This document shows positions 27,684 through 29,427 of a stretch of 64,000 nucleotides of DNA, piece after piece (position 1 is the first letter of the stretch; every line of letters begins with the position of its first letter). A model generated the notes under the pieces. That model was not told the DNA's origin and made no database searches. It was given only the letters and a program-made list of their open reading frames with translations. Both the position numbers and the translations under genes were made by a program. The DNA comes from Symbiobacterium thermophilum IAM 14863 (GTDB taxonomy: Bacteria > Bacillota > Sulfobacillia > Symbiobacteriales > Symbiobacteriaceae): the NCBI RefSeq assembly GCF_000009905.1, contig NC_006177.1, positions 2,108,001-2,172,000 on the forward strand, written 5' to 3'.

Positions 27684-28376
27684 TCACCTCGGTTCTTCCG
27701 CCTTCTCCTGCCGCGGCGAGAGCAACTGCGCCAGGGCCACGCCGCTCAGGAAGCCGTTGATGTGCGCCCAGAAGGCGACCGTCTGGGTGAGGTCATGCAG
27801 CCAGATCGGCGCCAGGCCGCTGGCCAGCTGCACGAAGAACCAGAGCCCGAGGAACACCCAGGCCGGCACCCGGACGGCCGGGACGAAGGCGCCGATGGGC
27901 ACGAGGGCCAGCACCCGGGCCCGCGGGAAGCTGAGGATGTATCCTCCCAGCACCCCGGCCACGGCGCCCGAGGCGCCGATCGTCGGGATCGGCGAGGTCG
28001 GGTTGGCCACCGCGTGCGCCAGGTTGGCCAGGGCGATGCACAGCACGTAGAACAGCAGGTACCGCCCGTGGCCCAGCCGGTCCTCCAGGTTGTCCCCGAA
28101 GATCCAGAGGTAGAGCATGTTGCCCAGCACGTGGCCCCAGGAACCGTGCAGGAAGGCCGAGGTGAAGAGGGTCACCAGCGGCCATCCCCCGCTCGCCGCC
28201 CAGGCGTCCGGGCTGAGCAGCGCGGTCGGCCGGAGGGCGAAGTTCCCGATGAGCCACTCGCCCGTCACCGGGCTGGCCATCTCCAGGAGGAAGACGGCGA
28301 AGTTGAGGGCGATGAGCGCCCAGTTGACCCACGGGCGTCTGCGTACCGCTGGACTGTCACGCAGTGGCAGGACCAA
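27684..28376 (-). CDS. Rhomboid family intramembrane serine protease
   Basis: About 230 residues with six predicted membrane helices. Rhomboid marks are HGSWGHVLGNMLYLWIFGDN (loop 1/helix 2), the nucleophile in PTIGASGAVAGVLGGYI and the catalytic His in VAFWAHINGFLSGVALAQLL. It cleaves membrane-embedded substrates; targets are unknown. The start is not sure: TTG 28376 has GGGGGGAG at 6 bases, TTG 28382 is closer to it. It is inserted between ireB and ruvX relative to the usual Firmicute order and sits 7 bases before ruvX, so they are probably cotranscribed. Confidence 0.88.
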   Translation of the reverse strand: MVLPLRDSPAVRRRPWVNWALIALNFAVFLLEMASPVTGEWLIGNFALRPTALLSPDAWAASGGWPLVTLFTSAFLHGSWGHVLGNMLYLWIFGDNLEDRLGHGRYLLFYVLCIALANLAHAVANPTSPIPTIGASGAVAGVLGGYILSFPRARVLALVPIGAFVPAVRVPAWVFLGLWFFVQLASGLAPIWLHDLTQTVAFWAHINGFLSGVALAQLLSPRQEKAEEPR

Positions 28377-28485
28377 TGCCAACTCCCCCCGGAGTGTACC
28401 GCGCCGGCGCCGGCTTTGCAATAGCATATCTCCCCCGACGCTGAATCACTCTATGGGCAGCGAGTAAACCGGAGGTGCATTTGGT

Positions 28486-28914
28486 TTGCGTCTGCGCGAC
28501 CTGATGACAACGGACGTCCGCACCTGCGCGCCCGACACGCCCGTGTCCGAAGTGGCCCGCATCATGGAAGAGGCCGACTGCGGCTTCGTGCCCGTCGTCG
28601 ACGGCGGCCGGGTAGCCGGGGTGATCACCGACCGCGACATCGTGCTGCGGGCCGTGGCCAGGGGGCGGGACATCCGCACCACCACGGCGCGGGAGTGCAT
28701 GACCAGCCCGGCCGTCACCGTCGGTCCCGACACCGACGCCCACGCGGCCGCCGACCTGATGGCGGATAAGCAGATCCGGCGGCTCTGCGTGGTCGACGGC
28801 GGCCGCCTGGTGGGCGTGGTGGCCCTGGGGGACCTGGCGACGGAGCGGATCCACGTCGACGAGGCCGGGGAGGCCCTCTCCTCGATCTCGGAACCGGCCC
28901 AGCCCGCCCACTGA
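28486..28914 (+). CDS. Two-CBS-domain protein
   Basis: A 142-residue protein made of a tandem CBS pair: RLRDLMTTDVRTCAPDTPVS to VITDRDIVLRAVARG (residues 2-66) and RECMTSPAVTVGPDTDAHAA to LVGVVALGDLATE (residues 69-124). CBS pairs bind adenosine nucleotides and regulate partner proteins; free-standing ones like this (YhcV-like) have no defined partner. The start is TTG 28486, 8 bases after GGAGGTG. It is divergent from the rhomboid gene and is followed by a strong terminator, so it is a single-gene unit. Confidence 0.9.
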   Translation: MRLRDLMTTDVRTCAPDTPVSEVARIMEEADCGFVPVVDGGRVAGVITDRDIVLRAVARGRDIRTTTARECMTSPAVTVGPDTDAHAAADLMADKQIRRLCVVDGGRLVGVVALGDLATERIHVDEAGEALSSISEPAQPAH

Positions 28915-28935
28915 GATGGAGCAGGTCATTCTTCC

Positions 28936-28965
28936 GGGACGCCCCTGTCCGGTCGGGGGCGTCCC
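28936..28965 (+). terminator. Terminator of the CBS gene
   Basis: GGGACGCCCC pairs perfectly with GGGGCGTCCC over a 10-nt loop, 21 bases after the stop codon. The following sequence is CGCC, not a T-run. Confidence 0.65.
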
Positions 28966-29061
28966 GCCGCGTTCTGTCACGTGCTGCCGCCCCGCTTCAT
29001 ACCATAGCCCGGGGCCGAGCCTGTCCCGGCCCCACTTCAGTGCGGGGAGGCGTCGCCGGAC

Positions 29062-29352
29062 ATGTGCTGGCACTGCTCAGGCCACGATTGGGATTGGGAT
29101 TGGGACTGGAACTGCGACTGCCAGTGCCCCTGCCGTTGCCGCGGCGACCGCCGGCGACGCTTCGACCGGAAGCGCCGGTGCGACCTGCACGACGACTGGG
29201 ACGGCGATTGGGACGGGCACGATCGCGGGCGGTGCCGCCGCAGCCGGCGCCGCCGCTGCGACCACCGGGACGATGACCCGAAGTCGGACCTCTGCTCCCG
29301 TCCCGTCGTCGTGCACGGGCACGGCGGGGCGAAGCGGTTCCTCTTCATCTAG
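29062..29352 (+). CDS. Cys/Asp/Trp/Arg-rich small protein, not recognised
   Basis: A 96-residue ORF of extreme composition: MCWHCSGHDWDWDWDWNCDC, then QCPCRCRGDRRRRFDRKRRC, WDGDWDGHDRGRCRRSRRRR and an ordinary C-terminus (VVVHGHGGAKRFLFI). There are about eleven Cys, seven Trp and many Asp and Arg. Third codon positions are about 90% G/C, as in real genes here. GGGGAGG lies 11 bases before the ATG. Hairpins bound it on both sides (28936-28965, 29380-29400). The composition recalls small metal-binding or crosslinked spore-coat proteins, but that is only an analogy. An 81-residue A/V/P-rich frame on the other strand competes; I prefer this one for its ribosome site and codon bias. Confidence 0.5.
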   Translation: MCWHCSGHDWDWDWDWNCDCQCPCRCRGDRRRRFDRKRRCDLHDDWDGDWDGHDRGRCRRSRRRRCDHRDDDPKSDLCSRPVVVHGHGGAKRFLFI

Positions 29353-29379
29353 GCTTCGGCGAATCGATGCGCGCGAAAC

Positions 29380-29400
29380 GGGGCGCCCCCTGGGCGCCCC
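29380..29400. terminator. Hairpin between the small Cys-rich ORF and ireB
   Basis: GGGGCGCCC pairs perfectly with GGGCGCCCC over a CCT loop. It lies 28 bases after the plus-strand ORF and 28 bases after the minus-strand ireB stop, so it can serve both. Confidence 0.65.
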
Positions 29401-29427
29401 GCACTGTCTGCAGTTGAGAAAACCGCC

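Follow-up and report, generated by a model that had tools for sequence, protein, structure and literature searches.

The window (the whole 64,000-nucleotide stretch of the Symbiobacterium thermophilum genome that was analysed) contains an open reading frame (ORF) of 96 codons between a CBS-domain gene and ireB, with which it is convergent. The features of this locus are as follows, in window positions:

28935 to 28966, plus strand: G+C-rich hairpin downstream of the CBS gene (-30.9 kcal/mol, z -3.8 against shuffles), with no T-run
28977 to 28980, plus strand: -35 element TCAC (C at position 4), unchanged in three genus members
28998 to 29006, plus strand: -10 element CATACCATA, 17 nt after TCAC
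29044 to 29050, plus strand: Shine-Dalgarno-like GGGGAGG, 11 nt upstream of the ATG; GCGGGGAGGC is unchanged in three species
29062 to 29352, plus strand: the ORF, a proposed gene for a structural protein of the spore coat or exosporium, with orthologues at the same site in two other genus members (G001 and G002)
29299 to 29349, plus strand: C-terminal tail of the ORF product, RPVVVHGHGGAKRFLFI (consensus [HR]P[VI][VI]VHGHxxxKRF[IL]F, then stop; gap-free)
29379 to 29401, no strand assigned: G+C-rich hairpin separating the ORF from the convergent ireB, with no T-run

The ORF translates exactly as an earlier sequence-only reading of this DNA had claimed, into a 96 amino acid protein (MCWHCSGHDWDWDWDWNCDCQCPCRCRGDRRRRFDRKRRCDLHDDWDGDWDGHDRGRCRRSRRRRCDHRDDDPKSDLCSRPVVVHGHGGAKRFLFI, translated from the window). 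Its composition is as extreme as that reading had described (R 20.8%, D 19.8%, C 11.5%, W 7.3% and also H 7.3%), with no Tyr and no Glu, and the net charge is +4 over the 96 residues. An AlphaFold model built from the single sequence with no alignment had a pLDDT of 38 and no confident structure, and it says nothing of function; the product is predicted to be a low-complexity, intrinsically disordered polyampholyte. The claimed ribosome site is present as GGGGAGG, and the claimed bias of third codon positions was borne out, with G+C fractions of 0.67, 0.56 and 0.90 at the three positions resembling those of adjoining genes. The sequence-only reading had also placed terminators on both flanks. 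Strong hairpins do lie on both sides, but they lack the T-run of a canonical terminator, and a scan for T-run-dependent terminators did not report the hairpin at 28935 to 28966. This hairpin probably ends the CBS transcript. The region around the other hairpin (29350 to 29412) folds at -32.8 kcal/mol (z -2.3), making it a possible two-way terminator of the ORF and ireB.

Both of the other Symbiobacterium members searched have a counterpart at the matching site, with the CBS gene, the ORF and ireB on the opposite strand. The comparison thus covers two relatives, and in one of them (G002) a contig break divides the gene. The G001 orthologue has 219 amino acids (L016:2205-2864) and contains approximately seven copies of a 30-bp tandem repeat coding for HRFDHDFDRK-like units. 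The G002 orthologue has about 135 amino acids and is split over two contig ends (L017:1719-2036 and L018:2-91), the pieces reading MGFWHSHCHCKDD...RHHD and HHDDCKKRSKSVHPIIVHGHCGAKRFIFA. This assembly break within the gene (L017 end and L018 start; G002:C218 and C45) is probably due to repeats. Despite lengths of 96, about 135 and 219 amino acids, the three proteins share HDWD-like tracts and RRRR runs and keep the same compositional bias (Asp, Arg/Lys/His, Cys, and Trp or Phe, with zero Tyr), Trp being mostly replaced by Phe in G001. Cys accounts for 10.5% to 13.3% and Ser for 2% to 4% of residues, and the net charges of the G001 and G002 proteins are +1 over 219 and +3 over 135 residues. The start M-G-F-W is common to the orthologues, with M-C-W in S. 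thermophilum. In the C-terminal tail, 11 of 17 residues are identical in every pair of species, and the BLOSUM62 score of the tail is the best among the six frames in every pair.

Homologues were not found outside the genus, neither with a whole-protein profile in 398 genomes of the phylum nor with a protein search of 40 relatives, and a protein search of the S. thermophilum genome did not recover a paralogue. In the search of 40 relatives, a match in G011 (E-value 0.145) falls in an unrelated gene region. A profile of the 20-residue tail, run against 154 genomes of the class, was matched over its full length in the three genus members alone; of the weaker, partial matches, two that were inspected (in G490 and G487) are located mid-way in other open frames. 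The sequence-only reading had known of no named family like this protein, and this holds for Pfam (no family up to an E-value of 1 for the window protein) and for NCBIfam (no family up to 0.01 for any of the three orthologues). Rfam returned two matches only, far below the gathering scores, which we regard as chance. These comparisons mark the predicted gene as specific to Symbiobacterium and fast-changing.

The ireB-ruvX interval holds a rhomboid protease gene and the CBS-domain gene (window 27684 to 28914). The ORF and the CBS gene had been read as together interrupting a conserved alaS-ireB-ruvX order; the CBS gene does so, but the rhomboid gene interrupts it as well, and both are present in a Symbiobacteriaceae MAG (L019) that lacks the ORF. 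This MAG has ireB, CBS, rhomboid and ruvX in the same order, with an ireB-CBS gap of only about 209 bp. Among named records, the closest ireB is from a Symbiobacteriaceae MAG (85%). Because the ORF is absent from the L019 locus, it was either gained at this site at the level of the genus or lost elsewhere, and the CBS and rhomboid genes are older at the locus. The presence of the CBS and rhomboid genes there, shared with the MAG, is a family-level change of the alaS-ireB-ruvX order.

The consensus letters of the sigma-K -10 element are CATAnnnTA. The ORF promoter has C at position 4 of the -35 element and reads TCAC-N17-CATACCATA, in agreement with the sigma-K consensus, which is that of B. 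subtilis. An alignment of upstream regions revealed that TGTCAC-N17-CATACCAT[A/G] is kept in all three genus genomes around a spacer that diverges; the sigma-K-type spacing is equal in G002 and G001, the latter having one mismatch in the -10 element. In the window, GTCACN{15,19}CATACNATA occurs once, and it occurred in none of 100 shuffles. A scan for sigma-70 promoters returned none. The promoters that sigma-K and sigma-E read in B. subtilis have a common -10 element and are told apart by the fourth base of the -35 element, which is C for sigma-K and T for sigma-E (PMC517825). For sigma-K, a gap of 15 +/-1 bp separating the 5-nt box from the 10-nt box is optimal (PMC517825), and a gap of 15 bp corresponds to N17 between TCAC and CATA.

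Across the 3.57-Mb genome, the pattern TCACN{15,18}CATANNNTA has five sites, against one for a reversed-pattern control. Three of the five are directly upstream of sigK, of a cwlJ-gerQ pair and of the ORF; of the remaining two, one precedes an Asp23-like gene and one falls within another gene region. The cwlJ gene encodes a cortex-lytic enzyme and gerQ a coat protein. The sigK product was identified by TIGR02846 (387.8 bits, cut-off 298.7), the cwlJ-like product as a SleB relative (E-value 6.5e-7), and the gerQ product by a GerQ match slightly under the cut-off (E-value 1e-23). Sigma-E is also present in the genome (442.9 bits, cut-off 348.6), and the sigma-E version of the pattern (TCAT) occurs once. 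The S. thermophilum sigma-K carries an arginine (GISRSYVSR) where sigma-E has a glutamine (GISQSYISR), the residues that are said to read the base at position 4 of the -35 element (PMC517825). In both G001 and G002 the pattern is found before cwlJ, and in G002 additionally before the ORF orthologue and a ylbJ-like sporulation gene. A single promoter site is no proof, because control patterns matched by chance one to three times in each genus member. Likewise, the -10 element alone is not discriminating, because most of the eight sites in a CATACNATA-only scan are not upstream of sporulation genes. The position, conservation and company of the predicted promoter sites agree, and the ORF is very likely to be under the control of sigma-K (or sigma-E).

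The scans also revealed several other loci. The sequence TCACCTCGTT[CT]AAAGCACGATCCATATCATA before the Asp23-like gene is near-identical in two species (L104, G000:C1:1505467-1505497; L132, G002:C94:15733-15763); this site may be a real promoter of some different type, or else an additional mother-cell promoter. The gerQ-like protein encoded downstream of the cwlJ-like gene (L103 / L110, G000:C1 near 976,000) has a long N-terminus of MMPG repeats, which is unusual for GerQ. A sigma-K-like site in G001 (L133, G001:C30 near 16,900) precedes an open frame with ETGD/DTTGD repeats; this frame could encode a further spore protein of low complexity, or it could be an artefact of the antisense strand.

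We propose that the ORF probably encodes a late mother-cell protein, disordered and structural, of the spore coat or exosporium. Among the functions that the sequence-only reading had offered, coat cross-linking is favoured by the conserved sigma-K-type promoter and by the low-complexity, Cys-rich character retained in two relatives. Many coat proteins have low-complexity repeats and disorder (PMC4219348), and the sigma-K regulon is less conserved than the genes of sigma-E (PMC517825). The change of length through in-frame repeats, the low complexity and the lack of a confident model therefore fit a coat protein. The promoter does not prove a location in the coat, because sigma-K also drives enzymes and regulators. 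According to our proposal, sigma-K RNA polymerase would transcribe the ORF alone, in the mother cell late in sporulation, and sigma-E, whose own promoter is almost the same, may also play a part. The product would combine Asp-aromatic-Asp-aromatic tracts, Arg/Lys/His-rich tracts, scattered CxC cysteines and a conserved hydrophobic/basic tail. Its short conserved ends may bring it to the coat or exosporium as this layer forms (the tail could be the recruiting piece), its variable middle would pack through charge and cation-pi contacts, and disulfides would then lock it into the protein shell. We infer the time of expression, the placement on the spore, the disulfide locking and the function of the tail. 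Cys-rich, self-assembling proteins are known from spore surfaces, where unrelated sequences converge on such shells (PMC7333573).

An unlikely alternative is that the product binds or buffers metal (Zn, Cu, Ca or similar, through Cys, His and Asp) in the mother cell or spore, with or without a structural role. Cys, His and Asp together make up 39% of the protein (51% in G001 and 53% in G002), and CxC runs are kept in all three orthologues. However, the number and spacing of cysteines differ between orthologues, unlike in metallothionein-type cores, the conserved tail has only two invariant His, and no metal-related gene was seen among the neighbours. Still less probable is a sigma-K or sigma-E dependent mother-cell protein that never enters the spore, such as a regulator, chaperone or condensate scaffold. 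The promoter evidence alone permits any mother-cell function, and a low-complexity polyampholyte with no confident fold would suit such a role, but the composition, repeats and fast turnover resemble those of coat or exosporium proteins more than those of regulators.

The ORF itself is very probably a real gene, and it is very improbable that it is a chance frame in G+C-rich repetitive DNA or that the true gene is the antisense A/V/P-rich frame. Its length was not counted as evidence, because a frame of at least 96 codons is expected by chance, appearing in 653 of 1000 random sequences (first-order, matched to this intergenic stretch in base composition and length). Antisense frames are open in all three species as well. 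Furthermore, the selection test on substitutions that the sequence-only reading had proposed, applied in frame-neutral form to the three genus members, found no frame with a significant excess of synonymous changes. An excess was positive only on an alignment guided by the sense protein and was not counted because such an alignment is circular. In the frame-neutral alignments, all 14 gaps are multiples of three, which is partly forced by the 6- and 30-bp repeats. On the other hand, the plus-strand frame is the one that has the conserved promoter, ribosome site, start, tail and stop, and its codon-position G+C resembles that of adjoining genes. Another check proposed by that reading, conservation of the frame in relatives, found it kept in both other genus members. 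Translation of the antisense frame, which it had also raised, is unsupported: the starts and stops of that frame do not correspond between species. Finally, an Arg-rich protein that coats nucleic acid in the forespore, as protamines or SASPs do, is suggested by the 20.8% Arg and the RRRR runs and is barely credible, since Asp balances Arg/Lys to near-zero net charge in the three orthologues (+4, +1 and +3) and the promoter is of a mother-cell type, not the forespore (sigma-G) type.

The composition of the proposed coat or exosporium protein is unusual; the kind of protein is ordinary. Symbiobacterium is a thermophile that normally needs partner bacteria, and a search of one collection of papers found none on spores of S. 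thermophilum. Coat proteins change fast, and few are recognisable in lineages far from Bacillus and Clostridium. This candidate was reached through a conserved sigma-K-type promoter and a conserved tail rather than through homology. Because sigK and cwlJ-gerQ were also found with the promoter pattern, the pattern can serve to draw up a list of coat candidates for Symbiobacterium. The ORF product also offers a compact system for testing how chains that are disordered, aromatic-charged and Cys-rich form a tough shell. A bolder and rather doubtful extension is a genus-specific spore-coat polymer built on alternating Asp-Trp/Asp-Phe, together with blocks of Arg/His and of CxC. Contacts between aromatic and charged residues, along with disulfides or metal ions, would there take the place of the Tyr chemistry of Bacillus coats. 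If true, this deep, G+C-rich lineage of Bacillota would build its sigma-K-dependent coat with a material-forming protein of new design.

Among known systems, CotC and CotU of B. subtilis are Tyr/Lys/Asp-rich, low-complexity proteins of the outer coat. The ORF product is like them in being short and of low complexity, with Asp-aromatic-basic repeats, a narrow phylogenetic range and (as predicted) late mother-cell expression. It differs in having Trp/Phe instead of Tyr, which is zero in all three orthologues, and many Cys and Arg/His; Pfam and NCBIfam indicate no sequence relationship. Membership of a metallothionein-like group is contradicted by the shifting Cys positions of the orthologues. 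CotG of B. subtilis has central disordered repeats and a proposed structural role in the coat (PMC4130616). The ORF product is likewise repeat-rich and predicted to be disordered, with the same proposed role; CotG, however, is a strongly basic protein (pI 10.26) whose Ser-containing repeats are phosphorylated, in contrast to net charges of +1 to +4 and 2% to 4% Ser in the ORF orthologues. In comparison with the Cys-rich spore-surface proteins CsxA, CdeC/CdeM, CotY and ExsY, no homology was found, and the ORF product differs from these proteins in its extreme, repeat-built composition. It is nevertheless a Cys-rich candidate for the spore surface for which disulfide locking is predicted, and unrelated Cys-rich proteins of spore surfaces converge on just such a disulfide-locked plan (PMC7333573, PMC7677010).
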